Assembly: GCF_011764425.1 (NCBI RefSeq)
Contig: NZ_BLPF01000002.1
Span: 992,997 to 1,056,996, forward strand
Source of the DNA: Phytohabitans houttuyneae
Lineage (GTDB): Bacteria; Actinomycetota; Actinomycetes; Mycobacteriales; Micromonosporaceae
Reading direction: 5' to 3'
Length of the DNA: 64,000 nt
Below are positions 8,942-38,474 of this stretch, piece by piece (position 1 is the first letter of the stretch; each line of letters opens with the position of its first letter). The notes beneath the pieces are model-generated. The model made no database searches. It worked only from the letters and a program-made list of their open reading frames with translations, and was not told the origin of the DNA. The translations under genes and the position numbers were made by a program.

Positions 8942-8993
8942 CGTTAAGTATTATTAGCAGCGCGTTGCGCCGCCAGCCGTGCGGACCGCCCGT

Positions 8994-15672: not shown

Positions 15673-15691
15673 CCGCCTGAGGGGTCAGGGT

Positions 15692-15716: not shown

Positions 15717-15769
15717 CGACCATCCGCGGGCACGAGGCCACGGCCCGGCGCGCCGGACACGATCGGCTC

Positions 15770-16366: not shown

Positions 16367-16922
16367 GTGATCGGAGCTGCTCGCTGCCGGCTGTGCTGGC
16401 CGTCGTGGCGCGCCTGGTCGCTGTCGCGGGTGACCTGCGCGACCCGCTCGGCGAGGGCGTTGTGGGTGTCGGGCAGGTGCTCGTGGGTCGCCGCGAGGAG
16501 CGGCACCAGCATGCCGGGATCGGCCGAGGCGAGAGCGTCGTGCAGGCGGTCGAGGCTCGGCTGGGCGTGGGGCCGAGGTCGGTCAGCGCGCTCACCTGCC
16601 CGGCCAGCTGGCGCAGGTCGGCGCCGTGGTCGCGGGCCCAGGCCGAAGCCGCGCGGTCACCGGCGCGGCGGTCCCGGACCGCCTGCACCCGCTGGTCCTG
16701 GGTGACGCCGGCATCGTCGGGATCGGTGCGTCGCAGCCGGAGGTACCGCTTTTCCGCCGCCTGGCGGCTGGCCACGCCGAGCGCCGGTGCGAGCTCGGCC
16801 CAGCTAAAGCCGCTGGCGCGGGCGACCTCGATCAGCTGAGGCTCCCACTCGTCCAGCAGGTCGCGCAGCTCACGGAGCACGGCCAGGGCCTGCAGGACCC
16901 CGTCATCCTTCGGGTCCGCCAT
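16363..16922 (-). CDS. HSP18-type transcriptional regulator, RheA-like role (apparent frameshift)
   Basis: From ATG 16922 the N-terminal half has a helix-turn-helix-like segment SWAELAPALGVASRQAAEKR and continues to GQVSALTDLG. At the run gggg 16569-16572 (CCCC in the gene) the frame changes. One extra C gives DLGPHAQPSLDRLHDAL and a 186-aa protein ending at TAG 16365-16363. The sequence resembles actinobacterial proteins named HSP18 transcriptional regulator. It lies divergent from a small heat-shock gene, and two RheA-type operators separate them, implying heat-relieved repression of hsp20 and of itself. Confidence 0.8.
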
Positions 16923-23647: not shown

Positions 23648-24544
23648 TCAGCGGCCGATGCCCTGGCTCAACCCCTGGATGAACTGCCGGGAGAAGACCG
23701 TGAAGAGCACGATGAGCGGCACCGCGCCGAGCGTCAGCGCGGCGAGCAGCGCCGGGTAGTCGTTGAGGAACTGCCCCACGAACTGCTGCACGCCGAGCGT
23801 GACGGTCTGGTGCTCCGGGCTCGGCGCCAGGATGAGCGGAAACCACAGGTCGTTCCAGACCGGCAGCATCGTCACCGAGGCGACGGCGGCCAGGCCGGGC
23901 CGGACGAGCGGCAGCGTCAGCCGCAGCGTGCGCAGCTCGCCCGCGCCGTCGATGCGCCCGGCGTCCTTGAGATCCGTGGGCACCGCCCGGAAGTACGTCA
24001 TCATCAGCGCGACCGCGAGTGGCACGCTCATCGCCGTGTAGACGAGGACCAGCGCGGTGAGCGTGTCCATCAGCCGCCAGGACACGACGAGCTTGAGGAT
24101 CGGCACGGTGCCCAGGCGGATCGGCAGCATGATGCCGATCGTGAAGAACGCGGCGAGGACCGGGGCCAGCCGCACCTTGTACTCCACGAGCGCGAACGCC
24201 GCGAGCGTGCTGAGCACGAGTGTCAGCGCGGTGGTACCGACGGTCACGACCAGGCTGTTGCGGTAGTTGGCGGCGAAGTTGCCCCGCTCGAAGACCCGCT
24301 CGTAGCCGGCCACGCTGAAAGTCTCCCGATCCGGCAGCCCGAACGGGTCGGCGAAGATCGCCGGTGTCGTCTTGAACGAGTTCAACACGATGAGGAGTAC
24401 CGGCGCGATGGCCAGCAGCGCGAAGAGCAGCAGCAGGCCGTGCACCGCGAGCGTGCCGCCCATTGTGGACGGCCGTCGCCCGCGGCGCCGCGCCTCCGGT
24501 ACCGGTGCGGGCGCGCCGGCACGGGCCGGTGCGAGAACACTCAT
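23648..24544 (-). CDS. Carbohydrate ABC transporter permease, MalG type
   Basis: 298 aa with six hydrophobic helices and a modified EAA loop (KDAGRIDGAGELRTLRLTLP). The cytoplasmic N-terminus is Arg/Pro-rich. Third gene of the minus-strand binding protein-permease-permease operon that faces the amine-oxidase cluster. It forms the importer channel with the 24555-25439 product. The ATPase is not encoded locally. Confidence 0.92.
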   Translation of the reverse strand: MSVLAPARAGAPAPVPEARRRGRRPSTMGGTLAVHGLLLLFALLAIAPVLLIVLNSFKTTPAIFADPFGLPDRETFSVAGYERVFERGNFAANYRNSLVVTVGTTALTLVLSTLAAFALVEYKVRLAPVLAAFFTIGIMLPIRLGTVPILKLVVSWRLMDTLTALVLVYTAMSVPLAVALMMTYFRAVPTDLKDAGRIDGAGELRTLRLTLPLVRPGLAAVASVTMLPVWNDLWFPLILAPSPEHQTVTLGVQQFVGQFLNDYPALLAALTLGAVPLIVLFTVFSRQFIQGLSQGIGR

Positions 24545-24554
24545 GCGGTGCCCC

Positions 24555-25439
24555 TCACAGCTCGTAGGACTTCAGACGGCGGTGCAGCAGCACGAAGTAC
24601 CCGGCCGTGGTGACCAGGATGAGGAAGAAGATGACGCTCGCCACCGTGGCGCCGAGGTCCAGGTCGGAGACCTGGCCGCTGGAGCCGAAGAACGTGCGGT
24701 AGAAGAGCGTGCCGAGGATGTCGGTGCTGTAGTTCGGGCCCGGTGCCGAGCCGTTGAGCGCGAAGACGATGTCGAAGCCGTTGAACGTCCAGATGTAGGT
24801 GAGGATCGCGATCAGCCCGAACTGCGGGGCGATGAGCGGAAACTTGACCCGCCAGAACGTGGTCCAGCCGTTCGCGCCGTCGATGCGCGCCGCCTCCAGC
24901 ACCGGGCCGGGGATCGCCAGCAGCGCGGTGTAGAGGAAAATCATCGGGATGCCGACGTACTGCCACACCGACATCAGGGAGATGGTCGGCAGCGCGGTCC
25001 GCTCGTCGCCGAGCAGCGGGTGTTCCACCAGCCCCCACAGTGGGTTGATGATGAGCCGCCAGATGAAGCCGACCACCACGACCGACAAGGTGGTGGGGAT
25101 GAAGAGCAGCGTGCGGTAGACGGCCGCCGAGCGGCGCAGCCGACCGGAGGTCAGCAGCGCCGCCAGCAACAGTCCCACGGGTACCTCCACCAGCAGGTGG
25201 ATGGCGAAGAACTCGACGTTGTTGACCAGCGCGTTCCAGAAGCGCTCGCTGGTCGTCGGGTTCGTGAACAGGTAGACGTAGTTGTCGAAGCCGACCCACC
25301 GGCTCACGCCCGTGTCGCTGTCGAAGAAGCTCAGGTAGATCGAGCTTGCCAGCGGGTACGCCGCGAACACCGTGTAGACCGCCAGGGCGGGTAGGGTGAA
25401 CGCCAGCAGGTGCCGGTAGCGGGAGCGCATCGCGGTCAC
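24555..25439 (-). CDS. Carbohydrate ABC transporter permease, MalF type
   Basis: 294 aa with six helices and the EAA loop EAARIDGANGWTTFWRVKFP. GTG 25439 starts one nucleotide after the stop of the substrate-binding gene, so translation is coupled. The gap to the MalG-type gene is 10 nt. Family knowledge places it in the CUT1 sugar importer class. Confidence 0.92.
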   Translation of the reverse strand: MTAMRSRYRHLLAFTLPALAVYTVFAAYPLASSIYLSFFDSDTGVSRWVGFDNYVYLFTNPTTSERFWNALVNNVEFFAIHLLVEVPVGLLLAALLTSGRLRRSAAVYRTLLFIPTTLSVVVVGFIWRLIINPLWGLVEHPLLGDERTALPTISLMSVWQYVGIPMIFLYTALLAIPGPVLEAARIDGANGWTTFWRVKFPLIAPQFGLIAILTYIWTFNGFDIVFALNGSAPGPNYSTDILGTLFYRTFFGSSGQVSDLDLGATVASVIFFLILVTTAGYFVLLHRRLKSYEL

Positions 25440-25440
25440 G

Positions 25441-26727
25441 TCACCTCTGCTGCGGCTTGTACCAGGACTGGAGCCCGGTCTGCAGTTCGCTCGTGGCCGC
25501 CTGCGGGGTGAGCCCCTTGGTGTACATGAGCTGCAGCACCCGCCACACCTCGTCGTCGAACGGCGGCGTGCCCGAGCTGAGCCGGTCGAGGCCGAGGCGC
25601 GGGGTGAGCTGCGCGCCGGTCTTGAGGTCGGCGAACTGCTGGGCGAGCGGGTTGGTGTACTTCACCGGCTCCTTGCCCATCGAGAAGAACCCGGGCACCT
25701 TGTTGGCGTACAGCTGCTGGAACTCGGTGCTCGCCGTCCAGTCGAGGAACTTCTCCGCCTCGGCCTTGTGCTTGCTTGCCGCGTTGATGCCGATCGCCAT
25801 GTCCGGCATCTCCTGCAGGTACCTCGTGCCGCCCGCGGTGGCCGCCGGTGGGCCGAAGACGCCGATCTCGATGCCGTTTGCGGTGACCTGGTTGATGTCC
25901 CACGAGCCGTCCGGCAGCACGGCCGCTTTGCCGAGTGAGAAGAGCTGGGTCATGTCCGCGTACTTGAGGCTCTCGTGGCCCTTGGGCAGGTACGGCCGCC
26001 ACGCGTCGAAGGCGGCGAACGCGGCCACGAAGTCGGGGTCGGTGACCTTCTTCGTGCCGTCGATGAGGCCCTTGCGCCCCTCCTCGCCCTTCCAGTAGGC
26101 GGGGCCGATGCTGTAGAGCCCGTTGTACGCCAGCTGCCACGACTCCGCCGAGCCGAGCGCGAGCGGTTCGTACTTGCCGTTGTCCTTGACCGCCTTGAGC
26201 ACCGCCAGGAACTCGTCCTGCGTGGTCGGCACCTGGAGGTTGAGCTCGGCGAAGATGTCCTTGTTGTAGAAGAAGCCGGCGAGCACCGACGCGGTGGGCA
26301 CGCAGTAGCGGCCGCCGTCGTCGCCGGACCACGCTTCGAGTGACTGGGCGTCGAACTTGTCCAGCACCGGCTTGCCGTCGAGCTTCTCGAAGTATCCCTT
26401 GCCGATCCACGCGCGGTTGACGTCGTAGGGCCGGCAGGTGATGAGGTCCGGCCCGGTGCCACCGTCCACCTGGGACTGGATCGCCGCGTTGTACTCGTTG
26501 GTGTTGATGGGGTTGAACCGCACGTCGATGGTGGGGTTGGCCTTTTCGAACACCGGCAGGATCTCGTCCTGCCACATCGTCAGGTCCTCGGTACGCCAGC
26601 TGCCGAGGGTCAGTACGGTCTTGCCGCCGTCGCCGCCTATCGGGCTGGCGGCGTCCGAGCAGGCCGTGAGCCCGAGGCCCACGGCGCTGGCGGCGACCAG
26701 CGCAACGGTTCCACGTAGTGCACGCAT
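25441..26727 (-). CDS. Sugar ABC transporter substrate-binding lipoprotein
   Basis: 428 aa from ATG 26727. Lipobox LTAC with Cys at position 23. The mature part has extracellular solute-binding family 1 features: GSWRTEDLTMWQDEILPVFEKANP and GTGPDLITCRPYD, then LGKAAVLPDGSWDINQV. It is divergent from an oxidoreductase gene. The adjacent amine oxidase, SIS isomerase and sugar kinase suggest that the ligand is a sugar carrying an amine group, but this is inference. Confidence 0.92.
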   Translation of the reverse strand: MRALRGTVALVAASAVGLGLTACSDAASPIGGDGGKTVLTLGSWRTEDLTMWQDEILPVFEKANPTIDVRFNPINTNEYNAAIQSQVDGGTGPDLITCRPYDVNRAWIGKGYFEKLDGKPVLDKFDAQSLEAWSGDDGGRYCVPTASVLAGFFYNKDIFAELNLQVPTTQDEFLAVLKAVKDNGKYEPLALGSAESWQLAYNGLYSIGPAYWKGEEGRKGLIDGTKKVTDPDFVAAFAAFDAWRPYLPKGHESLKYADMTQLFSLGKAAVLPDGSWDINQVTANGIEIGVFGPPAATAGGTRYLQEMPDMAIGINAASKHKAEAEKFLDWTASTEFQQLYANKVPGFFSMGKEPVKYTNPLAQQFADLKTGAQLTPRLGLDRLSSGTPPFDDEVWRVLQLMYTKGLTPQAATSELQTGLQSWYKPQQR

Positions 26728-26829
26728 GAGGCTGCCTCTCTCGCCATCGTCTTGATCTCGCCTGGCTCCCCGTCGACCGGCGCCTGAAGCGGGAGCATAC
26801 AAGTGCGATCCATCTGGTAACAAGAGGTA

Positions 26830-26857
26830 TTGCTTTTGGTCTGCTGCGTGCTACCTT
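26830..26857 (+). promoter_or_regulatory. Candidate promoter of the Gfo/Idh/MocA gene
   Basis: TTGCTT and TACCTT separated by 16 nt resemble a -35/-10 pair and lie 33 nt before the GTG start. The same 163-bp region must hold the divergent promoter for the transporter operon. Confidence 0.3.
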
Positions 26858-26890
26858 AGCGGTCCACCGATGACCCATTGGGAGGATGAC

Positions 26891-27934
26891 GTGATCGGAG
26901 TCGGCCTGCTCGGCTCGGGCTTCATCGCGGAGACGTACGCCGACGCGCTGCGCGACGTCCGCGATGCCGAACTGGTGGCCTCGTACTCGCGCGGTGAGCA
27001 GCGGGCCGCCGCCTTCGCCGCCCGCTGGCCCTCGGTCCGCACCTGGTACACCTCGGTGGAGGAGCTGTGCGCGGACCCGGCGGTGGACCTCGTGGTGATC
27101 GCCCTGCCCAACGAGGTGCACCTCGACGCGGTGCGGCACGTCGCCGCGGCCGGCAAGGGTGTCGTGTGCACCAAGCCGCTGGCCCGGACCGGCGCCGAGG
27201 CGGCAGAGATCCTGCGGGTCGTCACGGAGGCGGGCGTCTGGCACGGGTACGCCGAAAGCTCGGTGTTCTCGCCGAACGTGGCCAAGGCGCACGAGATGGT
27301 CGCGGCCGGCGGCATCGGCGACGTGGTCTGGATGCGCGCCCGCGAGGGGCACTCCGGGCCGCACGCCCCGCATTTCTGGGACGCCGAGGCGGCCGGCGGG
27401 GGCGCCCTGCTCGACATGGGCTGCCACACCGTGGAGTCGGCCCGCTGGTTCTTCGGCAAGGACAACCCGGTCACCGAGGTCTTCGCCTGGGGTGCCACGC
27501 TCGTGCACGGCGACAAGACCAAGGGCGAGGACTCGGCGATCGCGCTGCTGAAGTTCGCCGGCGGCCAGCTCGCGACCATCGAGTCGTCCTGGGTGGAGAA
27601 GGGTGGCATGCAGCTGCGCCACGAGATCGTCGGTAGCGCCGGCCGGCTGGTCACGGACACCGCGTCCACGCCGGTCTGGGGCTTCGTCGGCAACCCGGTC
27701 AGCGGCCTCGTGGAGAAGGCGGACGCGGACACCGGCTGGGTGTACCCGGTCCCCGAGGAGACCCGGGCGTACGGCTTCTCGCAGGAGATGCGGCACTTCG
27801 TGGAGGCGTTCTCGCGGGGCGAGCCGCCGGTCGAGACGTTCCACGACGGCTGGGTGGTCAACTGCGTCATCGACGCCTGCTACCGGTCCATGGCATCGGG
27901 CGTATGGGAACCTGTCAACACGACGGGGCGATAG
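26891..27934 (+). CDS. Gfo/Idh/MocA family oxidoreductase
   Basis: 347 aa from GTG 26891 (GGGAGG 6 nt upstream; an ATG at 26870 is an alternative). N-terminal Rossmann GLLGSGFI. The EKP-type motif reads CTKPLARTGAEA and a DMGCHTVESARWF segment holds the family catalytic Asp and His. Such enzymes oxidise or reduce sugars and cyclitols with NAD(P). Placed between the sugar transporter and the amine-oxidase genes, it probably converts the imported sugar or opens its ring chemistry by 3-keto formation. Confidence 0.9.
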   Translation: MIGVGLLGSGFIAETYADALRDVRDAELVASYSRGEQRAAAFAARWPSVRTWYTSVEELCADPAVDLVVIALPNEVHLDAVRHVAAAGKGVVCTKPLARTGAEAAEILRVVTEAGVWHGYAESSVFSPNVAKAHEMVAAGGIGDVVWMRAREGHSGPHAPHFWDAEAAGGGALLDMGCHTVESARWFFGKDNPVTEVFAWGATLVHGDKTKGEDSAIALLKFAGGQLATIESSWVEKGGMQLRHEIVGSAGRLVTDTASTPVWGFVGNPVSGLVEKADADTGWVYPVPEETRAYGFSQEMRHFVEAFSRGEPPVETFHDGWVVNCVIDACYRSMASGVWEPVNTTGR

Positions 27935-27980
27935 GCCGGTCTACATTGGTCATCGCAGGTCAGGGGAGGAGCGTGCGCAG

Positions 27981-28748
27981 GTGAGCGACGAGATGTCGTC
28001 CTCGGCCTCGATCAGGCCCGACAACCCGGAGCCCATGTGGCTCCAGGCGGTCAACCTGATCAAGGCGGAGATCGCCAGCGGTGCACTGGAGCCCGGGATG
28101 CGGCTGCCCCCGGAGCGCGAGCTCTGCCAGCAGCTCGCGATCAGCCGGGTCACCCTCCGCAAGGCCCTGTCCCAGCTGGTCGAGCAGGGCGTGCTCCGCT
28201 CCAGCCACGGCCGAGGGTGGTACGTGGCGGGCACCGCCGCGCCGCCGGCCAAGGACTGGCCGAACAGCCTGGAGTCGTTCACCGAGACCGCCCGGCGGAT
28301 GGGGCTGAGCGCGACCTCGCGGATCCTGCGCGCCGAGGTGCTGCCGGCCAACCTCGACGAGGCCGAGCGGCTGGTGGTCGCGCCCGGCAGCCCGCTCTTC
28401 CACCTCGAGCGGGTGCGGCTGCTGGACGGCGTGCCGATCGCGGTCGACGTCAGCAAGGTGCCCGCGCAGCTCGCGCCCCACCTGACCGAGAAGGACTTCA
28501 CCACCGGCTCGCTCTACGAGGAGCTCGTCGAGGCCGGCCTCGACCTGCGCCGCGCCGACACGACGATCCAGGCCACCGGTGCCGACCCGCACATCGCCAA
28601 AAACCTCGACATCGACGTCGACAAGCCGATCCTCGTGATGGACCAGGTCGTCGTCGACAGCAACGAGCGACCCCTGTTCACCTCGACGATCCGGTACAGC
28701 GGCGAGCGCTACCGCCTGCGCACGTTCTTCGCCCGCGGCGGCGCCTGA
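27981..28748 (+). CDS. GntR/HutC-family transcriptional regulator with UTRA domain
   Basis: 255 aa from GTG 27981 (GGGGAGGAG about 9 nt upstream; ATG 27993 is possible). The winged-helix domain has LPPERELCQQLAISRVTLRKAL and GVLRSSHGRGWYV. The UTRA effector domain (about 85-250) has LVVAPGSPLFHLERVRLLDG. HutC-type regulators usually bind a phosphorylated sugar or metabolite. It is a good candidate to control the flanking sugar transporter and the amine-oxidase operon. Confidence 0.92.
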   Translation: MSDEMSSSASIRPDNPEPMWLQAVNLIKAEIASGALEPGMRLPPERELCQQLAISRVTLRKALSQLVEQGVLRSSHGRGWYVAGTAAPPAKDWPNSLESFTETARRMGLSATSRILRAEVLPANLDEAERLVVAPGSPLFHLERVRLLDGVPIAVDVSKVPAQLAPHLTEKDFTTGSLYEELVEAGLDLRRADTTIQATGADPHIAKNLDIDVDKPILVMDQVVVDSNERPLFTSTIRYSGERYRLRTFFARGGA

Positions 28749-28803
28749 GCCCTGCCCATTTCCGCATCCGGTGTACCCCCGTGCGCCCACCAGTGGTATG
28801 CGG

Positions 28804-28815
28804 TGGTATTCACCA
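28804..28815. promoter_or_regulatory. Candidate GntR/HutC operator before the amine oxidase
   Basis: TGGTATTCACCA has the form TGGT-N4-ACCA, the core of HutC/DasR-type operators (TGGTCTAGACCA). A second TGGTAT lies 10 nt upstream, giving a direct repeat. It is 23 nt before the amine-oxidase start. Confidence 0.45.
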
Positions 28816-28837
28816 ATGTAGTCAACTGGAGTGATCC

Positions 28838-30730
28838 GTGACAGCTGCCCTAGCCACGGTCCGCGCCGACGAGTTCGAGCGGTGCCGGAAGGTCCTGTTC
28901 GCGGCCGGACTGGCCACTTCGGACACCCACTTCTCGTACGTCGGCCTGCTGGAGCCGGACAAGCGACTGCTCGCCACCGGGCAGGCGCCCCGGCAGCTGC
29001 GCGCCCTGCTCATCGACATGCGCACCGGCGAGTCGCACGACGTGGTGGTCGACCCGGCAGCTGACCGTGTGGTCAGTCAGCGGCGGATCGACCCGGACCG
29101 CGACGGCGCGGTACCGGTCGTCGTGCGCGAGTTCGGGTACGTCGAAGAGGTCGTGCACCGCGACGAGCGCTGGCTGGCGGCGATGCGCCGGCGCGGCCTC
29201 ACCGACCTGTCCCAGCTGCGGGTCAACCCGCTCTCGGCCGGCGTGCTCGCGGAAGGCGAGCGCGGGCGCCGGATCCAGCGCTGCTTCACCTTCGTCCAGC
29301 GCACGCCCGAGGACCTCGGCTGGGCCCACCCGGTCGACGGTGTCGTCGCGATGGTCGACGTGGTCACCGGCGAGGTGCTCGACGTCGTCGACCACGTCGA
29401 CCTGCCGGTACCGGCCGAGGACGGCAACTTCCACCTGTACGACGGCCCGCGCCGGGCCGGGCTGCGGCCGATCGAGATCACCCAACCCGAGGGCCCGAGC
29501 TTTGACATCGACGCCGACCAGGTGCTCACCTGGGCCGGCTGGAGCCTGCAGATCGGTTTCGACCAGCGCGAGGGCCTCGTGCTGCACGACATCGGCATCA
29601 CCGACGGCGACCGGGTACGCCCGATCGTCCACCGCGCGTCGATCGCCGAGATGGTCGTGCCGTACGGCGACCCGAGCCCGCAACGGTGGTTCCAGAACTT
29701 CTTCGACTGCGGCGAGTACCTGCTCGGCGGGTACGCCAACTCCCTCGAGCTCGGCTGCGACTGCGTCGGGGAGATCACCTACCTGGACGCGGTGGTCGCC
29801 GGCAATGACGGCCACGCGCGCACCATCCCGCAGGCGATCTGCGTGCACGAGGAGGACTACGGCATCCTCTGGAAGCACACCGACAACTGGAACGGCTCGT
29901 CCGACTCGCGCCGCCAGCGCCGCCTCGTGGTGTCGTTCTTCGTCACCGTCGGCAACTACGACTACGGCTTCTACTGGTACTTCTACCTCGACGGCACGAT
30001 CGAGTTCGAGGTGAAGGCGACCGGAGTGGTCTTCACCTCCGCCTATCCAGGCCCCGGCTACGCGTACGCCACCGAGATCGCGCCCGGGCTCGGCGCGCCA
30101 CACCACCAGCACCTGTTCAGCGCGCGGCTGGACATGGCGGTCGACGGGCCGGTCAACGCGGTCGACGAGATCGACGCGGTGCTGGTGCCGCGCGGCCCGG
30201 CCAACCCGACCGGCACCGGCTTCACCCCGGTGGTGACCCGGCTGCGCACCGAGTCGCAGGCGCAGCGGCTGGCCGACAACGGCAAGGGCAGGATCTGGTT
30301 CATCTCCAACCCCACCGTCCACAACAGACTCGGCCAGCCGGTTGGCTACACCCTCCACCCGCAAGGGCAACCGGTGCTGCTCGCCGACGCCGAGTCGGAC
30401 ATCCACCGGCGGGCCACCTTCGCCACGAAGCACCTGTGGGTCACCGCGTACGACCCGGCCGAGCTCTATCCCGCCGGTGACCTTGTCAACATGCACCCCG
30501 GCGGGGCTGGGCTGCCCGCCTGGACGGCCGCCGACCGCGACATCGACGGCGCGGACATCGTCGTGTGGCACACGTTCGGCCTCACCCACTTTCCACGGCC
30601 GGAGGACTGGCCGGTGATGCCGGTCGACACCACCGGGTTCACGCTCAAGCCGTACGGCTTCTTCGGCCGCAACCCCACCCTCGACGTGCCGCCTTCGGCG
30701 GCCGCCCACTGCCACAGCCACCACCACTAG
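28838..30730 (+). CDS. Copper-containing primary amine oxidase (phenethylamine-oxidase type)
   Basis: 630 aa, the usual length. The TPQ precursor Tyr374 lies in TVGNYDYGFYWYFY, the catalytic base is Asp290 in FFDCGEYLLGG, and the copper ligands are His423, His425 (HQH) and His584 (GLTHFPRPEDWP). The sequence strongly recalls the Arthrobacter globiformis phenethylamine oxidase. It oxidises a primary amine to an aldehyde, releasing ammonia and H2O2. The tail ends in HCHSHHH, an unusual metal-binding-like extension. First of a four-gene operon with an SIS isomerase, a sugar kinase and an aldehyde dehydrogenase. Confidence 0.97.
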   Translation: MTAALATVRADEFERCRKVLFAAGLATSDTHFSYVGLLEPDKRLLATGQAPRQLRALLIDMRTGESHDVVVDPAADRVVSQRRIDPDRDGAVPVVVREFGYVEEVVHRDERWLAAMRRRGLTDLSQLRVNPLSAGVLAEGERGRRIQRCFTFVQRTPEDLGWAHPVDGVVAMVDVVTGEVLDVVDHVDLPVPAEDGNFHLYDGPRRAGLRPIEITQPEGPSFDIDADQVLTWAGWSLQIGFDQREGLVLHDIGITDGDRVRPIVHRASIAEMVVPYGDPSPQRWFQNFFDCGEYLLGGYANSLELGCDCVGEITYLDAVVAGNDGHARTIPQAICVHEEDYGILWKHTDNWNGSSDSRRQRRLVVSFFVTVGNYDYGFYWYFYLDGTIEFEVKATGVVFTSAYPGPGYAYATEIAPGLGAPHHQHLFSARLDMAVDGPVNAVDEIDAVLVPRGPANPTGTGFTPVVTRLRTESQAQRLADNGKGRIWFISNPTVHNRLGQPVGYTLHPQGQPVLLADAESDIHRRATFATKHLWVTAYDPAELYPAGDLVNMHPGGAGLPAWTAADRDIDGADIVVWHTFGLTHFPRPEDWPVMPVDTTGFTLKPYGFFGRNPTLDVPPSAAAHCHSHHH

Positions 30731-30742
30731 ACAAGGGCGCAG

Positions 30743-31747
30743 ATGCACGACTACATCACGTTCGCGGAGGCGAGGGCGGGCCAGGCACGGGCGCTCGAGG
30801 ACGCGATCGGCACGCTGACCACGGCCGTACGCGCCCAGCGGGACGCCGGCGGACTGCGCGGGCCGGGCCCGGTCTTCGTCGGCATCGGCGCGAGCCTGGC
30901 GGCGGCCTGCGCTCCGGTGTGGACACTGCGCCTGCGGGGCGTGCACGCGTGGCGGCTCGGGGCCGGTGACCACCCGCTGCCCTACCCGGCTTCGCCGCAT
31001 CCAGTGGTCGGCGTGTCGCAGAGCGGCCGCAGCGCCGAGACGCTCGCGGTGCTCGGCTCGGTCGAGCCGCGGCGCCGGTACGCGGTCGTCAACGCCCACC
31101 CCTCGCCGATCTCCGCCGCCGTCGCGCACCGCCTGGAGCTGGGCAACATTCCGGACAGCTACGCCTCCACCATCGGGTACACGGCCACGGTCGCCGCCCT
31201 CGGCATGCTCGCCGAGGTGTGGGACGGTGGTGAGGTCGACCCCGGCTGGGCCCGGCTGCCGGAGCTGTTCCGGTGGACCGAGAAGGTGGTGGGGGAGCGG
31301 GCCGCCTCGCTCGCCGAGAGCTTCCGCGACGCCCGCTCGGCCGACTTCGTGGGCGCCGGCCCCTCGGTCGGCTCCGCGGAGGCGGGCGCGCTGCTGCTGC
31401 GCGAGGTCGCGCGGGTGCCGTCCGCCGCGATGAGCACCCGGCAGTACCTGCACGGCGCGATGGAGTCGGCCGGAGACGGCGTTCACGTGCTCTTCGGCGA
31501 CGACCGCGAGGTCGCGCTGGCGCACACGCTCGCCGGCGCCGGCCACCGCGTGGTACTCGTCTCCGCGGCCGACGTGCCGGAGCAGCGCGGCATTCGCGCG
31601 GTCAAGCTGCCGGCCGTGCCGCCCAACCAGCGGGCGGTGCTGGAGGCGCTGGTCATGCAGGTGCTCGCCGCCGCCGTCGCCGGGGTGCGCGGCGTCGACG
31701 TCGAGGAGTTCGTGTTTCACAACAACGACATCAAGGTCGAGGCGTGA
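30743..31747 (+). CDS. SIS-domain sugar isomerase/deglycase-like protein
   Basis: 334 aa with two SIS domains: VFVGIGASLAAAC and VVGVSQSGRSAETLAVL in the first, DFVGAGPSVGSAEAGALLLRE and QYLHGAMES in the second. This is the layout of AgaS, the GlmS isomerase part and FrlB-type fructosamine-6-phosphate deglycases. It begins 12 nt after the amine oxidase and overlaps the kinase by 4 bp. Probable step: isomerisation or deglycation of a phosphorylated amino or glycated sugar. Which one cannot be read directly. Confidence 0.88.
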   Translation: MHDYITFAEARAGQARALEDAIGTLTTAVRAQRDAGGLRGPGPVFVGIGASLAAACAPVWTLRLRGVHAWRLGAGDHPLPYPASPHPVVGVSQSGRSAETLAVLGSVEPRRRYAVVNAHPSPISAAVAHRLELGNIPDSYASTIGYTATVAALGMLAEVWDGGEVDPGWARLPELFRWTEKVVGERAASLAESFRDARSADFVGAGPSVGSAEAGALLLREVARVPSAAMSTRQYLHGAMESAGDGVHVLFGDDREVALAHTLAGAGHRVVLVSAADVPEQRGIRAVKLPAVPPNQRAVLEALVMQVLAAAVAGVRGVDVEEFVFHNNDIKVEA

Positions 31748-32637
31748 GCGCCGCTATCGCCGGGATCGACGCGGGCGGCACCAAGACCACGATCCTTGTC
31801 GAGGCGCTCGACGGCCGCCGGGTGGCCACAGTGGACATACCGTCGACGGGCTGGAACGCCGAGCCGGTCGAGGCCGGCGCCGGCTGGATCGACGCCGCCC
31901 TGCGCCGCGCCACACCGCCCGGGTGCGAGGTGGTGGCGCTCGGGGTCGGTGCGCAGGGGCTCGACTCGACAGCCCTGGCGCACGCCTTCACCGCGGCGCT
32001 CGCTGCCCGCGGCCACCGCGCGGTCGCGGTCAATGACGCCGCCCTTCTGGTACCGGCGGCCGGGCTCGACGACGGCATCGGCGTGATCTCCGGTACCGGC
32101 GCGATCGGCGTGGGCCGCGACGCGTCCGGCCAGTGGCTCTTTACCGGCGGGTGGGGCGCGGTCATCGGCGACGAGGGTGGCGCGGCCGGCCTGGTCCGCG
32201 AGGCCACCCGCCTGGCGCTGGGCGCCCACGACGACGGCGAGCCGGACGACGGGCTGCTCTCCGCGCTGTGCGACGCGTTCGGGGCCGGCACCGCCGAGCG
32301 GCTCGCCCGCGCCGTCAACGACGAACCCACGACCGACAACTGGGGGCCGCGCGCCCCGGCGGTCTTCGCCGCCGCCGACCGCGGCTCGGCGCTGGCCGCC
32401 CGCGCGGTCCAGGATGCCGCCGACCATCTGTCCACACTGGTCGACCAGCTCGTGCGCCGGGGCGCGGCCGGCGGTGACGTGGTCGCCGCCGGCGGCGTGG
32501 TCACCCACCAGCCCCGGCTGTACGAGGCGTTCGCCAGCCGGGTCGCCGCGCGCCACCCCGACCTCACCGTCCACCTTCTCACCGGACCACCCGCGGCCGG
32601 CGCGCTGGCACTGGCCCGCCGGCTGGTCACACCCTGA
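31744..32637 (+). CDS. BadF/BadG-family sugar kinase (N-acetylglucosamine kinase-like)
   Basis: 297 aa from GTG 31744 (GTGA overlap). ASKHA ATPase fold: phosphate-1 GIDAGGTKTTILVE, phosphate-2 GVISGTGAIGVG and adenosine-region GGVVTHQPRLYEAF. Mammalian NAGK-like enzymes of this family phosphorylate amino sugars at O6. In this operon it would provide the 6-phosphate substrate for the SIS protein. Confidence 0.88.
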   Translation: MSAAIAGIDAGGTKTTILVEALDGRRVATVDIPSTGWNAEPVEAGAGWIDAALRRATPPGCEVVALGVGAQGLDSTALAHAFTAALAARGHRAVAVNDAALLVPAAGLDDGIGVISGTGAIGVGRDASGQWLFTGGWGAVIGDEGGAAGLVREATRLALGAHDDGEPDDGLLSALCDAFGAGTAERLARAVNDEPTTDNWGPRAPAVFAAADRGSALAARAVQDAADHLSTLVDQLVRRGAAGGDVVAAGGVVTHQPRLYEAFASRVAARHPDLTVHLLTGPPAAGALALARRLVTP

Positions 32638-32648
32638 AGGGAGCCCCG

Positions 32649-34025
32649 ATGCCCATCGCGACCGTCAACCCGGCGACCGGACAGACCCTCAAGACGTTCG
32701 AGGCGCACACCGCGGAGCAGGTCGAGCGGATCCTCGCCCGCGCGCACGCCACGAACGGCGCGCTCGCGGCCACCACGTTCGCCCAGCGCGGCGCGTGGAT
32801 GCGGCGCGCCGCGGACCTCCTCGACGCCGAGGCGGCCGAGCTCGCCGCGCTCATCGCCACCGAGATGGGCAAGACGCTGCCGACCGCCGCGTACGAGGTG
32901 GCGAAGTCGGCCCGGGGCATGCGCCACTACGCCGAGCACGCCGAGGCGTACCTCGCCGACGAGCGGCCGGTGCCGCCCGCCGAGGTCGGCGCCTCGGACG
33001 CCCGCGTGGTGTACCAGCCGCTTGGCACGATCCTCGCCGTCATGCCGTGGAACTACCCGTTCTGGCAGGTCATCCGCTTCGCCGCGCCGGCCCTGATGGC
33101 CGGCAACACGGCGCTGCTCAAGCACGCGTCGAGCGTGCCGCAGTGCGCGCTCTATCTTGGCGAGCTGTTCACCCGCGCCGGCTTCCCCGCCGGCGCCTTC
33201 CAGACGCTTCTGCTGGAGGCCGCCCGTACGACGAGGCTCCTCGACGACCCGCGGGTGCGGGCGGTCACGCTCACCGGCTCGGTCGGCGCGGGCGCGGCGG
33301 TCGCGGAGGCGGCCGGCCGCAACATCAAGAAGAGCGTGCTGGAGCTCGGCGGCACCGACGTGTTCATCGTCCTGCCGTCCGCCGACGTCGCCAAGGCGGC
33401 CGAGGCGGGCGTCGCCTCCCGCACCCAGAACAGTGGGCAGAGCTGCATCGCCGCCAAGCGCTTCTACGTGCACGAGGCGGTGTACGCGGAGTTCGAGGAG
33501 CGGTTCGTCGCCGGTATGGCCGCGCAGAAGGCCGGCGACCCGTTCGCCGCGGACACGTCGTTCGGGCCGCTCGCCACCGAGCAGGGCCGCGCCGACGCGC
33601 ACGCGCTCGTCGAGGACGCCCGGTCCAAGGGGGCGACCGTGCGTACCGGTGGTGCCGTCCCGGACGGGCCGGGCTGGTTCTACCCGGCGACCGTCCTGAC
33701 CGGAGTGACGCCGCGGATGCGCATCTACCGCGAGGAGTGCTTCGGCCCCGTGGCCTGCCTCTATCCGGTGCGCGACCTCGCCGAGGCGGTCGAGCGGGCC
33801 AACGACTCGCCGTTCGGGCTCAGCTCCAGCGTCTGGACCAGCGACCCCGACGAGATCACCGCGCTCGCCGCGAGGATCGAGGCGGGCGCGGTGTTCGTCA
33901 ACGGCAACACCGCGTCGTTCCCCCAGCTGCCGTTCGGCGGGATCAAGGACTCCGGGTACGGGCGGGAGCTGTCCGGATTCGGCATCCGCGAGTTCGTCAA
34001 CGTCAAGACGGTGTGGGTCAGCTGA
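32649..34025 (+). CDS. NAD(P)-dependent aldehyde dehydrogenase (succinate-semialdehyde type)
   Basis: 458 aa. The catalytic Cys is in NSGQSCIAAKR and the general-base Glu in LELGGTDVF. NAD contacts are GSVGAGAAV and the Rossmann start MPWNYPFWQ. It resembles Sad/GabD-type short aldehyde dehydrogenases. In context it would oxidise the aldehyde produced by the copper amine oxidase. It closes the operon, 11 nt after the kinase. Confidence 0.93.
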   Translation: MPIATVNPATGQTLKTFEAHTAEQVERILARAHATNGALAATTFAQRGAWMRRAADLLDAEAAELAALIATEMGKTLPTAAYEVAKSARGMRHYAEHAEAYLADERPVPPAEVGASDARVVYQPLGTILAVMPWNYPFWQVIRFAAPALMAGNTALLKHASSVPQCALYLGELFTRAGFPAGAFQTLLLEAARTTRLLDDPRVRAVTLTGSVGAGAAVAEAAGRNIKKSVLELGGTDVFIVLPSADVAKAAEAGVASRTQNSGQSCIAAKRFYVHEAVYAEFEERFVAGMAAQKAGDPFAADTSFGPLATEQGRADAHALVEDARSKGATVRTGGAVPDGPGWFYPATVLTGVTPRMRIYREECFGPVACLYPVRDLAEAVERANDSPFGLSSSVWTSDPDEITALAARIEAGAVFVNGNTASFPQLPFGGIKDSGYGRELSGFGIREFVNVKTVWVS

Positions 34026-34049: not shown

Positions 34050-35111
34050 TCACGCCGACCGCCAGGCGGCGATCTTGGCCAGGTCGGTGAGCGCGGCGCG
34101 GGCGTCCGGGTGGATCGGCGTCTGGTCGAGCGCCGCCAGGGCTGCGGCGACCCGCTCGGCGATCATCTCCTCGACCCGGTCGACCGCGCCACTTCGCCGT
34201 ACCGCCGCCGCCGTCTGGCTGGGGGTCGGGTCGCCGTCGGGTCCTTCGGCGAGGGACCTGGCCAGCTGCGAGACGACGGTCGCTTTGTGGCCGGCGCTGT
34301 CGTCACCGACGGGCTTGCCGGTTTCGGCCGGGTCGCCGGTCAGGCCGAGCAGGTCGTCGCGGAGTTGGAACGCCTCGCCGACGGCCAGCCCGTAGCCGGT
34401 GTAGGCGCGGTGGAGGCTGTCGCCCGGTGGCGCGCCGGCCAGAGCCGCGCCGTAATGCAGCGGACGCACGGTGGTGTAGCTGGCGGTCTTGAGCCGGATC
34501 GTGAGCAGGGAACGCTCCACGGTCCATGCCGGCTGGGCGCCGCCGAGCAGGTCCAGAAACTGGCCGGCGATCGCCTCCAGGCGCATCCGGTCGTAGCAGG
34601 CCCGGGCCGCGGCGAGCCGGTGGCCGGGCAGGGCGCTGGCGGCGATCAGCTGGTCGGCCCAGACCAGGCACAGGTCGCCGACCAGGATCGCCGCGCCGTC
34701 CCCGAACCGGTCCGCCTCGCCGCGCCATCCCTGGCCGGTGTGCAGGTTGGCGAACGCCCGGTGGGTGGTGGGCCGGCCGCGCCGGGTCGCCGACGCGTCC
34801 ATCACGTCGTCGTGCACGAGCGCGAACGCGTGCAGAAACTCCAGCGCCGCCAGGGCGGGCAGCACGGTGTCGACCGGCGCCGCCGGCCCGGCCACGCCGC
34901 GCCAGCCCCAGTAGGCGAACGTGGGACGAAGACGCTTGCCTCCGCCCAGCACCGCGTCGCGGGCGGCGTCCGCCAGCCAGCACAGCGCTGAATCCCACGC
35001 GGCCAAGGTGGCCGTCGAGGTGGCCAGGAAGTCGGCCAGGACCTCGTCGACCAGGCCTGGGATGTTGATCGTCCCCGCCGCTGGGGGAGTGGCCACGAGA
35101 TTCTCCGTCAT
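34050..35111 (-). CDS. Polyprenyl diphosphate synthase (geranylgeranyl/farnesyl type)
   Basis: 353 aa from ATG 35111. The first Asp-rich motif is DDVMD after LHAFALVHDD. The second is QLRDDLLGLTGDPAETGKP, the actinobacterial form. GGGKRLRP binds diphosphate. It condenses IPP with allylic diphosphates. The residues five and four before the first motif (His and Ala in HAFALVHDD) are small to medium, so a C15-C20 product is likely, but chain length is not certain. Monocistronic with no terpene cyclase nearby. Confidence 0.93.
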   Translation of the reverse strand: MTENLVATPPAAGTINIPGLVDEVLADFLATSTATLAAWDSALCWLADAARDAVLGGGKRLRPTFAYWGWRGVAGPAAPVDTVLPALAALEFLHAFALVHDDVMDASATRRGRPTTHRAFANLHTGQGWRGEADRFGDGAAILVGDLCLVWADQLIAASALPGHRLAAARACYDRMRLEAIAGQFLDLLGGAQPAWTVERSLLTIRLKTASYTTVRPLHYGAALAGAPPGDSLHRAYTGYGLAVGEAFQLRDDLLGLTGDPAETGKPVGDDSAGHKATVVSQLARSLAEGPDGDPTPSQTAAAVRRSGAVDRVEEMIAERVAAALAALDQTPIHPDARAALTDLAKIAAWRSA

Positions 35112-35267
35112 CACCAAACCGTAACGCGTATAGCGCACTCGCGTCGGTTTCCGCGTCGAAATCGGCTATCGTGGGTCCGCTCATCGCCCGCGACCTCTGG
35201 ACGTTCGCCCGTGTTCGAGCCTGAACGTTCCCGAACGTCTCGGATCGAAGTCTGGCGTCACGTTGTT

Positions 35268-35293
35268 GTTTCCGTTACCGATGTAACCGAAAC
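35268..35293. promoter_or_regulatory. Palindromic operator-like site upstream of the GH5 gene
   Basis: GTTTCCGTTAC (35268-35278) and GTAACCGAAAC (35283-35293) are inverted repeats with one mismatch around CGAT. The site ends 11 nt before the first possible start of the secreted hydrolase. It looks like a dimeric repressor site, for example for a carbon-source regulator of an unidentified family. Confidence 0.5.
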
Positions 35294-35304
35294 GACATCA
35301 GCCG

Positions 35305-36813
35305 ATGTCCGGACCAGAGGGGCGAGATTTGGTGACTGGACATTTCAGGACAAAGAAGGTGCGCTGGTTCACGGTTGCTGTGGTGGCCGCGCTGGCAGCA
35401 CTCGGTAGCGTCGTGGTCATCTCGTCGCCGGCCACCGCTGCCACCCGCCAGTTTCGAGGGATGAACTGGGCCGTACTGGGCGACAACTTCAGCACCGGCC
35501 CGCTCGTCCTACACGGCCTGAGCCAGTCCGACAGCAACGCGACGGTGCAGGCCAAGGCGAACGCCCTCTACGACGACATGGCCACCACGATGGGGGTCAA
35601 CACCGTCCGGCTGCCGGTCAACACCCACACGGTGGGTACGACATGGTGGAACGCCTACCGGGGCGCCATCGACGCGGCGATCGCCCGTGGGTTCAAGGTC
35701 ATCCTCGCCTACTGGGAGGACGGTGCCGCCTCCGGCGGCCGGATCACCAACCTCGCGGCGTGGAACACGATGTGGTCCACGGTGACCAACGCCTACGGCT
35801 CGAACACCAACGTGTACTTCGAGCCGATGAACGAGCCGCACGGGTACAGCTCGGCGGAGTGGCGCGACGTCGCCGCCAACTGGCTCAGCTACCACTACTC
35901 CGCGGTGCCGGGCCGGGTGCTCATCGGCGGTACCGGCTTCAGTCAGGACCTGCGGGACGTCTGCAACGACAGCCGCTTCAGTGGAACGCTGTTCTCCTTC
36001 CACCACTACGCGTTCTTCTACGGCGCGATGACGTACGACGCGTTCCGCAGCCACATCCAGACCCGCCTGGGCAACTGCGCCTCCCGCGCGGTTGCCACCG
36101 AGTTCGGCGCGCCGATGGACAACGGCCTCAACTACGGCGACGCGAACAGCACCGACAACTTCGTGCGCCACATCCGGGCCATGGCCCAGGTCATGCGCGA
36201 CAACCAGATGGGCGGCACCTACTGGCCGGCCCTCGGCGGCAAGCCCGGCAACATCGGCTACGACTGGTACTCGATGTTCGCCCTCAGCGGCAGCGGCACC
36301 AACCTCAACCTGACCATCCGCAACACCTCCGGCGCCGACCGCATCCGCTACGCCTGGGGCGACACCGTCGGCGGCGGCACCACGCCACCGCCCGCCACGT
36401 TCTACCGGGTCAACGCGCGTCACAGCGGCAAGGCCATGGACGTCCAGTCACCCAACACGGACAACGGCTCGCGCGTCGGCCAGTACACGTACAACGGCAA
36501 CGCGTGGCAGCAGTGGCAGTTCCAGGACGCCGGTAGCGGCTACTGGCGCCTCATCAGCCGGCACAGCGGAAAGTGCCTCGACGTGGTGAGCGCCTCCACC
36601 GCCGACGGTGCCGACCTCATCCAGTACACCTGTGGAAGCGGCACCAACCAGCAGTTCCAGATGGTCGCCAACGGCAGCTACTTCCAGCTGCGGGCGCGGC
36701 ACAGCGGCAAGTGCGTGGACGTGCCGTCGGCGTCGACCGCGGACGGCGTGGTCCTCAAGCAGTATCCGTGCAACACGGGCACGAACCAGCAGTGGTCGCG
36801 CACGGCCGTCTGA
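35305..36813 (+). CDS. Secreted glycoside hydrolase family 5-like enzyme with ricin B (CBM13) domain
   Basis: 502 aa from ATG 35305 (GTG 35332 is an equally plausible start). A signal peptide ends near ATAAT. The catalytic barrel (about 45-345) has the acid/base in YFEPMNEPHG and the nucleophile in AVATEFGAPMD. The C-terminal 130 residues are a ricin-type beta-trefoil with repeated RHSGK-x-x-DV and QQW/QQF motifs. Probably an extracellular endo-beta-glycanase (cellulase/mannanase type) that binds galactosides or xylan. Confidence 0.92.
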   Translation: MSGPEGRDLVTGHFRTKKVRWFTVAVVAALAALGSVVVISSPATAATRQFRGMNWAVLGDNFSTGPLVLHGLSQSDSNATVQAKANALYDDMATTMGVNTVRLPVNTHTVGTTWWNAYRGAIDAAIARGFKVILAYWEDGAASGGRITNLAAWNTMWSTVTNAYGSNTNVYFEPMNEPHGYSSAEWRDVAANWLSYHYSAVPGRVLIGGTGFSQDLRDVCNDSRFSGTLFSFHHYAFFYGAMTYDAFRSHIQTRLGNCASRAVATEFGAPMDNGLNYGDANSTDNFVRHIRAMAQVMRDNQMGGTYWPALGGKPGNIGYDWYSMFALSGSGTNLNLTIRNTSGADRIRYAWGDTVGGGTTPPPATFYRVNARHSGKAMDVQSPNTDNGSRVGQYTYNGNAWQQWQFQDAGSGYWRLISRHSGKCLDVVSASTADGADLIQYTCGSGTNQQFQMVANGSYFQLRARHSGKCVDVPSASTADGVVLKQYPCNTGTNQQWSRTAV

Positions 36814-36844
36814 CGGTCGTCCCGACACCCTTCCGTTGTACCCA

Positions 36845-36878
36845 CACTCCCGGTGCCGAGCGCTCGGCACCGGGAGTG
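36845..36878 (+). terminator. Perfect 34-bp palindromic terminator
   Basis: CACTCCCGGTGCCGAGC is followed directly by its exact reverse complement: 17-bp arms without a loop, 31 nt after the GH5 stop. It can form a very stable hairpin and is the likely transcription end. No T-tract. Confidence 0.7.
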
Positions 36879-36974
36879 CCGTCTGTGGTCCACGTCATGC
36901 GGCGTGGCTGTCACAGGGATCAGGTTGCCAACGCCTGATGATCGACAGCCAATGCCGACAGGACGGAAGACATC

Positions 36975-38474
36975 ATGGGCAAGACCGGGTTGCGCGGCTT
37001 GCTGAACAGGGTCCTTCCCGACCACTGGTCCCTGCTGCTGGGCCAGATCGCGCTGTACTCGTTCATCGTGTTGCTGGTCACCGGCGCGTTCCTCGCGTTC
37101 TTCTTCGAGCCGTCGATGGAGGAGGTGGTGTACGACGGGTCGTACACGCCGCTGCGAGGAGTGCGCATGTCCGCGGCCTATTCCTCCACTTTGGACATCT
37201 CGTTCGACGTCCGCGGTGGTCTGCTCATGCGCCAGATGCACCACTGGGCGGCGCTGCTGTTCATGGCATCGCTCCTGCTGTACCTGCTGCGCGTCTTCTT
37301 CACCGGTGCGTTCCGCAAGCCGCGGACGTCGAGCTGGGTCGTCGGCCTCCTGCTCTTCTGGACCGGCCTCTTCACCAGCTACACCGGCTACATGGCCATG
37401 GACGACGGCCAGTCCGCCGCCGGCATGCGGATCCTGTCGGCCATCCTCCTGTCGATACCCGTGGTCGGCACCTGGCTGACAACCTCCATCTTCGGCGGCG
37501 AGTTTCCCGGCGACGTGATAATCGGCCGCCTCTCCTTCCTGCACACGCTGCTGCTCCCCGGTCTGCTCATCGGGCTGGCGGCCGTCCAAGCCGTACTGGC
37601 GTGGCGGCGCAGGCCGAGCCAGTGGCCGGGACCGGGCCGCACCGAAGAGAACGTCGTGGGCCAGCGCCTGTTTCCCGGCCACGTGGTGAAACAGGCCGGC
37701 CTGTTCACGCTGGTGTGCGCGGTCCTCGCGCTGCTCGGCGGCTTGCTCCAGATCAACCCGGTCTGGCTCGCCGGACCCGCACACGCCGCGACGGTGTCGG
37801 CGGCGTCGCAGCCGGCCTGGTACGTCATGTTTCTCGACGGAGCGGTCCGGCTGATGCCGCCCTGGGAGGTCACGATCCCGATCGGTGACGGGTATGCCAT
37901 CGCACCCATCTTCTGGGCGGCGGTGGTGCTGCCGGGCATCCTGTTCATGCTCCCGATGACGTACCCGTTCGTCGAGGCGCGCGTGCGCCGGGACCGCCGC
38001 GAGCACCATCTGCTCGAGCGGCCCCGGGACGCTCCGACCCGCACCGCGCTCGGCGCCATGGCCGTCACCTTCTATCTCGTGCTGACCGCCGCGGGCGCCG
38101 CCGACCTCATCGCCCTCTCGTTCCACATCAGCACGAACGCGATGACCTGGGCCGGTCGCATCGGGCTGCTGCTCCTGCCGCCGGCCGCGTACTGGCTCAC
38201 CCGCCGGATCTGCCTCGGCCTGCAGCAGCACGACCGCCAGGTACTGGCGCACGGCGTGGAGACCGGCATCATCCGGCGACAGGCGGACGGCGGGTTCACC
38301 GAAGTACATCAGCCGCTGTCCACCCCCGACCACCGCGGCCGCGCCGGCCTGCCGTACGCCGGGTGGGTGGTGCCGAAGAAGATGAACCGCCTCGGCGCGC
38401 TCAGGCCCGCCATCAAGGGCTTCTTCACACCGGTCGAACAACCAGCCCGTGGCCCGGACTGCCCCCGCCCGTAA
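36975..38474 (+). CDS. Divergent cytochrome b (QcrB-like) lacking heme bH ligands
   Basis: 499 aa with eight to nine membrane helices and overall similarity to actinobacterial QcrB (GQIALYSFIVLLVTGAFLAF near the N-terminus and FLDGAVRLMPPWE). His89 in MHHWAALLF and His190 in FLHTLLLPG keep the bL-heme pair. The expected second ligands are Tyr103 (helix B) and Gln205 (helix D). The quinol-oxidation motif PEWY/PDWY reads PAWY (280-283). There is no qcrA or qcrC beside it. It is therefore a paralogue with altered or lost electron transfer, not the respiratory subunit. Confidence 0.85.
   Translation: MGKTGLRGLLNRVLPDHWSLLLGQIALYSFIVLLVTGAFLAFFFEPSMEEVVYDGSYTPLRGVRMSAAYSSTLDISFDVRGGLLMRQMHHWAALLFMASLLLYLLRVFFTGAFRKPRTSSWVVGLLLFWTGLFTSYTGYMAMDDGQSAAGMRILSAILLSIPVVGTWLTTSIFGGEFPGDVIIGRLSFLHTLLLPGLLIGLAAVQAVLAWRRRPSQWPGPGRTEENVVGQRLFPGHVVKQAGLFTLVCAVLALLGGLLQINPVWLAGPAHAATVSAASQPAWYVMFLDGAVRLMPPWEVTIPIGDGYAIAPIFWAAVVLPGILFMLPMTYPFVEARVRRDRREHHLLERPRDAPTRTALGAMAVTFYLVLTAAGAADLIALSFHISTNAMTWAGRIGLLLLPPAAYWLTRRICLGLQQHDRQVLAHGVETGIIRRQADGGFTEVHQPLSTPDHRGRAGLPYAGWVVPKKMNRLGALRPAIKGFFTPVEQPARGPDCPRP

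Follow-up and report, generated by a model that had tools for sequence, protein, structure and literature searches.

A candidate catabolic gene cluster for an amine-bearing or amine-linked amino sugar in Phytohabitans houttuyneae, with a copper amine oxidase subfamily of its own

We identified nine genes in a 64,000-nucleotide stretch of the Phytohabitans houttuyneae genome (contig NZ_BLPF01000002.1, positions 992,997 to 1,056,996; the whole stretch is referred to as the window) that may jointly serve the breakdown of an amino sugar with a primary amine on it or linked to it, a reading to which we assign a probability of about 0.48. The genes encode a sugar ABC importer with a solute-binding protein (SBP) and two permeases, a GFO/IDH/MocA oxidoreductase (GFO), a GntR/UTRA regulator, a copper amine oxidase (CAO), a SIS phosphosugar enzyme, a BadF/BcrAD sugar kinase and an aldehyde dehydrogenase (ALDH). 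All nine had been listed in an earlier note made from the letters alone, and coordinates and domain scans confirm them at their places (Table 1). The description of the last four as one tight operon was also right. They are packed head to tail, with 12 bp between the CAO and SIS genes, a GTGA overlap (-4) between the SIS and kinase genes and 11 bp between the kinase and ALDH genes, and because these spacings are so short the four genes are predicted, very likely correctly, to be co-transcribed. The importer genes are divergent from the GFO gene, and the start codons of SBP and GFO are 142 bp apart.

The SIS protein was used as a query in a single scan of GTDB genomes, which reaches close relatives only and returned 56 loci (54-69% identity; L001 and L011, which are the window itself, were excluded). 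The kinase gene adjoins the SIS gene in 53 of the 56 loci. Orthologs of GFO (at least 65% identity) are present in 45 loci and of SBP (at least 55%) in 32. A CAO of the type found in Arthrobacter globiformis (AGAO; at least 55%) occurs in 27 loci, in 26 of them on the same strand and at most 2.5 kb upstream of SIS (15 within 150 bp), and a more distant CAO (40-44%) in 8; an ALDH gene lies at most 3 kb away in 23. Because most of the gene set recurs in these loci, its presence in the window goes beyond chance, which bears out the earlier proposal that sugar import, kinase, SIS enzyme and amine oxidation belong together. The full set, partly rearranged, is found in Herbidospora, Asanoa, Acrocarpospora, Herbiconiux and Microbacterium. 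In Microbacteriaceae the ALDH has 69-75% identity to that of the window; in Herbidospora, Asanoa and Acrocarpospora its identity is only 35-39%, yet its gene again comes after the kinase gene. The flanks of the Streptomyces and Actinacidiphila loci hold no ortholog of the window's sugar importer; many of these loci carry genes for a peptide-type importer, ThuA, a TIM-barrel protein and a second GFO instead. A cluster of 10 GH9-like genes is spread over 8 of these loci, and the three genes scanned all match GH9.

The CAO of the window is 57% identical to AGAO (1rjo) and keeps the equivalents of Tyr382, Asp298, His431, His433 and His592. At Tyr296 of AGAO, which we take to be the gate residue, the window CAO and every subfamily member read have Phe (27 aligned CAOs, L090, L138 and 22 CAOs from CAO-led searches, partly from the same genomes). 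Other changes in the channel are Asn or Gln for Ala135 and mostly Asn, His or Ser for Leu358. A quick tree of 87 rows places the CAOs of SIS loci in a single clade (SH-like approximate likelihood ratio 100). Since 26 of the 29 rows of this clade came from the SIS-led scan and are SIS-linked by construction (L090 is the same as L016), the tree is no fair test of linkage, and searches were therefore led by the CAO. A class-wide search covered 394 genomes, with 70 matches listed and 30 loci read. Only the window's genome and G449 (71%) were SIS-linked among the loci read; the other 28 CAOs (at most 63%) all have Tyr296 and show no match to SIS, kinase, GFO or regulator in flanks of up to 1.5 kb, three having an ALDH. 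The families of G449 (341 genomes) and of the Microbacterium aoyamense genome G578 (398 genomes) were then searched with tblastn, and loci were read for the 30 best matches in one family, where the weaker matches were all at most 64%, and for all 29 in the other. Both families show a gap in identity between 70-78% and 64%. All 23 CAOs above the gap (69-77% by tblastn) have Phe296 and 21 of them are SIS-linked; about half of the 23 belong to genomes already in the SIS scan. The 21 comprise 16 with SIS within 1.5 kb, L090, L188 (which matches L029, with SIS 2 kb away) and L217, L220 and L221, for which longer stretches were read. All 35 CAOs that were read below the gap have Tyr296, and their flanks of up to 1.5 kb show no match to SIS, kinase, GFO or regulator; 7 have an ALDH nearby. 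In G059, a genome of the same order, a 71% identical CAO lies within a SIS-kinase-ALDH cluster (L157). The link of amine oxidation to the SIS/kinase pathway is well supported.

A second CAO subfamily takes this place in Rhizobiales. By record title, 19 of the SIS loci are alphaproteobacterial (L037, L040-L046, L049-L056, L058, L061, L066), and their CAOs in Rhizobium and Devosia are 40-44% identical to that of the window. The genomes of 16 of these loci were searched, and each contains one CAO ortholog (67-98% identity to the L068 CAO); the count becomes 16 of 17 if the genome of L062, which has none, is included. As a background, this CAO (E<=1e-200) was found in 1 of 198 genomes of the family of G560 (G706, 56%), and among the 199 genomes of that family SIS (E<=1e-80) occurs in the centre genome only. 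Comparison of 11 non-Devosia genomes with the 198 gives 2e-17 in Fisher's exact test, which ignores relatedness and treats three genomes titled only Rhizobiales as Rhizobiaceae. The CAO gene lies outside the 21-kb SIS locus in 8 of the 16 genomes; in four it could be joined to that locus by shared sequence and in four it could not. In the channel, the rhizobial CAO has Ile for Tyr296, together with Arg359, Asn/Asp407 and Gln602. The Devosia loci gave no match to Pot genes, and in L040 and L045 the CAO adjoins a sugar permease. A further protein is encoded beside the CAO in L068, L044, L056, L058 and L145, and its L068 copy matches the copper-chaperone family PF09948.

Variants of the locus were seen as well. 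L062, whose record is titled Mycobacterium sp. KBS0706, carries regulator, SIS, kinase and PotBCD-type genes in one direction; its record name may be wrong because its SIS groups with Devosia and its PotBCD-type proteins are 68-77% identical to those of L068. The genome of Microbacterium aoyamense has two different SIS loci (L059 and L158). One is of the window type with CAO; the other has a peptide-type importer, and neither kinase nor CAO was seen next to it. In Mycetocola (L063 and L064, 6161-9759) SIS and kinase lack both CAO and GFO and are encoded beside an amidohydrolase, a D-serine-dehydratase-type protein and, by reading, a RidA-like protein, so that the pair may be put to another use there. 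The genome of P. houttuyneae itself has a second SIS gene (36-41%; L151, 4692-11028). Genes of a sugar ABC importer precede it, two genes that by reading are GFO-like come after it, and no kinase was seen. Membrane proteins are encoded near the kinase or CAO in L017 (12129-12746) and L022 (13528-14073), both with no Pfam match, and in L159 (12362-13165, DUF5134); copper supply is our guess for their role.

To which sugar the pathway is directed can be approached through the SIS enzyme and the kinase. Pfam recognizes one SIS domain (residues 45-158), whereas the AlphaFold model (mean predicted local distance difference test score 91.9) aligns over its full length with GlmS isomerase domains; the earlier note had described the protein as two-domain. 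The best folds among the 50 of 136 strong Foldseek matches listed are Lmo0035 (2aml), the isomerase domains of GFPT1 and GlmS and the glucosamine-6-phosphate deaminase of P. furiosus (2cb0). Residues S51, S92, Q93, S94, S97, E221, H237 and K331 are invariant in 39 SIS sequences and align with GlmS S303, S347-S349, T352, E488, H504 and K603, the K331/K603 pair having been matched by eye across a gap; in GlmS these are the phosphate site and the catalytic residues Glu488, His504 and Lys603. Sister SIS genes in L004 (44%) and L007 (41%) follow sugar ABC genes, and a ROK-like regulator (by reading) is also present; they are convergent with a GH20 gene and with a GH2 gene whose product has PF18368, the Ig domain of exo-beta-D-glucosaminidase. 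The kinase matches a MurNAc/GlcNAc kinase best in the PDB (8zo3, E 4.8e-17), with hexokinase 2e2n, NAGK 2ch5 and 1zc6 also found. Because of the GlmS-like fold and residues, the distance from the fructosamine deglycase FrlB described below, the exo-glucosaminidase neighbors of the sister genes and the GH9-like clusters, we favor glucosamine or a derivative as the predicted substrate of SIS and kinase.

The earlier note had proposed an Amadori route or, as an alternative, an N-substituted amino sugar, which is still a candidate. In the Amadori route a fructosyl-amine would enter through the importer and receive a phosphate from the BadF kinase, and SIS would split the product into glucose-6-phosphate and an amine, which CAO and ALDH then finish. 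This gives kinase, SIS, CAO and ALDH a place in a single sequence of steps, and transporter, sugar kinase and SIS enzyme are indeed shared with the fructosamine operons (frlABCDR of E. coli, fra of Salmonella, frl of B. subtilis). FrlR is a GntR/UTRA regulator, for which the E. coli record gives a DNA-binding regulator. A Glu/His pair is common to SIS and FrlB, and the SIS matches 3knz (E 1.7e-9) and 3fkj (6e-6) could be deglycases, the listing assigning a function to neither. PotABCD-type importers occur in Rhizobium-type loci, PotBCD genes come after SIS and kinase in L062, and sister SIS-BadF pairs stand with amino-acid ABC genes in L070 and near a SIS-PfkB operon in L069. However, the kinase in the fructosamine operons (FrlD) is of the PfkB family, and that of the window is BadF. 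The window SIS shares 17% identity with E. coli FrlB and 20% with a SIS from Klebsiella whose gene adjoins that of a PfkB kinase. These two references, with no Salmonella or Bacillus sequence included, branch together and apart from the window clade (33 of 72 SIS sequences; branches are long and the placement is rough). In the PDB search the named fructose-aminoacid-6-phosphate deglycase 3eua was the weakest of 28 matches (E 6.5e-4), with GlmS and glucosamine-6-phosphate deaminases scoring better. The sister SIS genes lie in chitosan-type loci beside the exo-glucosaminidase, the 8.5-kb frl stretch of E. coli has no annotated CAO, ALDH or GFO gene whereas the window has all three, and the Amadori route leaves GFO without a role. 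We therefore consider it possible but disfavored, and on balance unlikely; the better fit is an amino sugar with a primary amine on it or joined to it. On the Klebsiella plasmid of L069 the two different SIS/kinase pairs are at 8983-10928 and 14835-16708; the sister pair (33%) is accompanied by a YfcC transporter and is 4 kb from the SIS-PfkB operon, which has amino-acid ABC genes.

GFO had no role in the earlier note, though it is the most conserved of the three enzymes aligned, with a mean column identity of 81% (19 sequences) next to 67% for SIS (39 sequences) and 63% for the kinase (25 sequences, L013 and L067 left out), the sequence sets being different. GFO and CAO agree in presence in 47 of 52 judged loci (41 with both, 6 with neither, 4 with CAO only and 1 with GFO only; 4 were not judged), and therefore GFO goes with the amine part. 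The conserved GFO is a member of the system. Its profile matches 6jw6 (E 7e-41) and 6nor (E 9e-40) best, which we take to be KanD2 and GenD2, C3''-dehydrogenases of aminoglycoside biosynthesis. These matches, the CAO channel, more polar than that of AGAO (Asn/Gln135 and mostly Asn/His/Ser358; Arg359, Asn/Asp407 and Gln602 in the rhizobial CAO), and the recurring importers of sugar, peptide and polyamine type would be in line with a primary amine on the sugar itself, i.e., an aminoglycoside-like amino or diamino sugar with a CH2-NH2 group. From this CAO would make a sugar aldehyde and ALDH a sugar acid, while GFO oxidizes a ring hydroxyl and kinase and SIS handle another amino sugar. The likeness of GFO is a resemblance within a broad family, no gene specific for an aminoglycoside core was seen, and a 6-amino sugar has no 6-OH to be phosphorylated, which makes such a substrate distinctly improbable. 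The AldH model recognizes the ALDH of the window above its cut-off, and the enzyme is also close to NADP-type succinic semialdehyde dehydrogenase; models for phenylacetaldehyde dehydrogenase give 284 bits compared with 817 for AldH. Since the nearest models for all eight ALDHs scanned are those of AldH, semialdehyde or betaine-aldehyde enzymes (with scores mostly under the cut-off apart from that of the window), their sequences weakly suggest a small polar aldehyde as substrate. Other ALDH subfamilies hold the same position in other loci.

In the pathway that we propose, the ABC importer would take the compound, an amino sugar with a primary amine on it or attached to it, into the cell and GFO, NAD(P)-dependent by family, would oxidize a sugar hydroxyl, probably early and perhaps loosening a linkage. 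The BadF kinase would phosphorylate the amino sugar, and SIS would isomerize or deaminate the 6-phosphate in the manner of GlmS or NagB-II, yielding hexose phosphate and ammonia or an amine. CAO would oxidize the primary amine to an aldehyde, ammonia and hydrogen peroxide, and ALDH would convert the aldehyde to an acid. Tentatively, and at somewhat less than even odds, we suggest that the compound is a natural conjugate or aminoglycoside-like, that GFO, BadF kinase and GlmS-like SIS dismantle it in coupling with the dedicated CAO subfamily, and that a different CAO subfamily was recruited for this task in Rhizobiales.

Several observations weigh against this proposal. The substrate and the order of steps are inferred, and the counts are not independent, the loci being related and many coming from one genus. 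A whole-genome search at E<=1e-80 in 26 SIS genomes (30 of the 56 loci were omitted: L012-L035, L039, L041, L046, L050, L060 and L067) found no CAO in 7 of them (three Kutzneria, two Mycetocola, L057 and L062). Two of the 23 subfamily CAOs (L218 and L219; genomes G1252 and G1301) are followed by a 73% identical ALDH and have no SIS or kinase gene within about 8 kb. The Rhizobium-type CAO module consists of PotDCBA-type importer genes and a ROK regulator of its own, with an ALDH in several. All three speak for an alternative in which a free amino sugar and a free amine are used as nutrients in their own right, co-occurring in nature and sharing no more than their regulation. The tight operon with its overlap, the SIS linkage of 21 of the 23 subfamily CAOs and the 16 of 16 co-occurrence of the second CAO subfamily argue against such a division, and we regard it as quite unlikely. 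Conservation as a unit, which had been set beforehand as a test, was thus largely seen, including the kinase in 53 of 56 loci, and failed in the seven genomes without CAO and the two CAOs without SIS. The CAOs of L065 (59%) and L135 (62%) are of the Tyr296 type although they are in SIS loci, that of L135 standing beside a kinase relative at a distance of about 11 kb from SIS in L036. No N4/N5 repeat was found by the rhizobial CAO modules L139-L146. Finally, the kinase reaches 49.5 of 370 bits (NagK_SO3507) and SIS 36.6 of 430 bits (NagB_SO3506), far below these equivalog cut-offs. Because of these scores, and because it would leave no work for CAO, ALDH and GFO, plain glucosamine is disfavored as substrate.

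The promoters of these genes share a repeat. In 23 loci chosen by hand from both phyla, the 8-mer AGAGGTAT is present upstream of these genes in 12, whereas 100 shuffles gave 0.26 on average and 2 at most. A GC-rich 8-mer in 10 of the 23 loci also beats its shuffle maximum of 9, because the stretches include coding DNA. Direct repeats of the TGGTAT-N4-TGGTAT kind are also present before the CAO gene in six Herbidospora loci and in Microbispora (L065). Within the window alone the repeat pattern has 1 site where 1.95 are expected, which is not significant. A search for a palindromic operator was dominated by related loci and was replaced by that for direct repeats. The GntR/UTRA regulator may read the GGTAT/GGTCT-type repeats and control importer, GFO and the CAO operon, a pairing that we infer. 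By reading, the genes past the operon (34050-38474) likely encode a polyprenyl synthase, then a secreted protein that is cellulase-like and has a ricin-type lectin domain, and a cytochrome b protein.

Table 1. Genes and promoter elements of the candidate amino sugar cluster (positions in the window).
Feature	Position	Strand	Basis and remarks
CUT1-type sugar ABC permease 2	23648-24544	-	PF00528; orthologs in many SIS loci
CUT1-type sugar ABC permease 1	24555-25439	-	PF00528; 70-84% identity in loci with an ortholog
Sugar solute-binding protein (SBP)	25441-26727	-	PF01547; start and lipobox assigned by reading
Operator-like repeat AGGTAT...TGGTCT	26822-26842	+	Divergent SBP/GFO promoter
GFO/IDH/MocA oxidoreductase (GFO)	26870-27934	+	PF01408, PF22725, PF02894
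GntR/UTRA (HutC-type) regulator	about 27981-28748	+	PF00392, PF07702 (scanned from 28002); start codon by reading; orthologs across loci
Operator-like direct repeat TGGTAT-N4-TGGTAT	28794-28809	+	28 bp before CAO start
Copper amine oxidase (CAO), own subfamily	28838-30730	+	PF01179 (E 8.8e-151); NF008559, 842 bits (cut-off 651)
SIS phosphosugar enzyme, GlmS/glucosamine-6-phosphate-deaminase-like	30743-31747	+	PF01380; model and Foldseek
BadF/BcrAD sugar kinase	31744-32637	+	PF01869
Aldehyde dehydrogenase (ALDH), AldH/GabD1-like	32649-34025	+	PF00171; NF042989, 817 bits (cut-off 800)

Parts of the cluster resemble other known systems. A BadF kinase beside a GlmS-like SIS is common to the window and to systems of the NagK/NagB-II type, whose cut-offs the window proteins miss by far. 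In S. meliloti, SM_b21217 is read as a glucosamine kinase from fitness data in the available part of one source (PMC11378808), and galactosamine is predicted for the same genes (SM_b21216-21221) in that of another (PMC4961836). A search of pSymB with the window kinase, run without a positive control, gave no match, the BadF family being reached below the cut-off only; one of two SIS matches there (L089, the other being L077) is by reading like a KpsF-type isomerase. The actinobacterial csnREFGHK cluster encodes an ABC importer and a kinase for glucosamine compounds, as far as the accessible text of its sources goes (PMC6097792, PMC5635096). Importer and kinase are common to csn and the window, and L152 and L153 resemble the csn cluster with a SIS gene in place. 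The csn cluster has a ROK repressor and a GH4 hydrolase, whereas the window has the GntR/UTRA regulator, SIS, CAO, ALDH and GFO, and the GH4 model matched none of its nine proteins in the Pfam scan. In the part of PMC6520443 at hand, the glucosamine kinase gene for actinobacterial GlcNK stands beside a SIS gene; unlike the window, that system combines an AgaS-type SIS with a maltokinase paralogue in biosynthetic clusters. AGAO shares its catalytic residues with the window CAO, which belongs to a subfamily of its own that is mostly found beside SIS and kinase. A literature search, mainly of open-access papers at the level of title and abstract, turned up no paper describing a SIS/kinase amino-sugar operon that includes a CAO.

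With this cluster, the CAO subfamily gains a metabolic home other than free aromatic amines. The cluster points to an amine-containing sugar in soil that is eaten by two bacterial phyla, and the conserved importer, the highly conserved GFO and the shared promoter repeat are direct handles for finding the compound.

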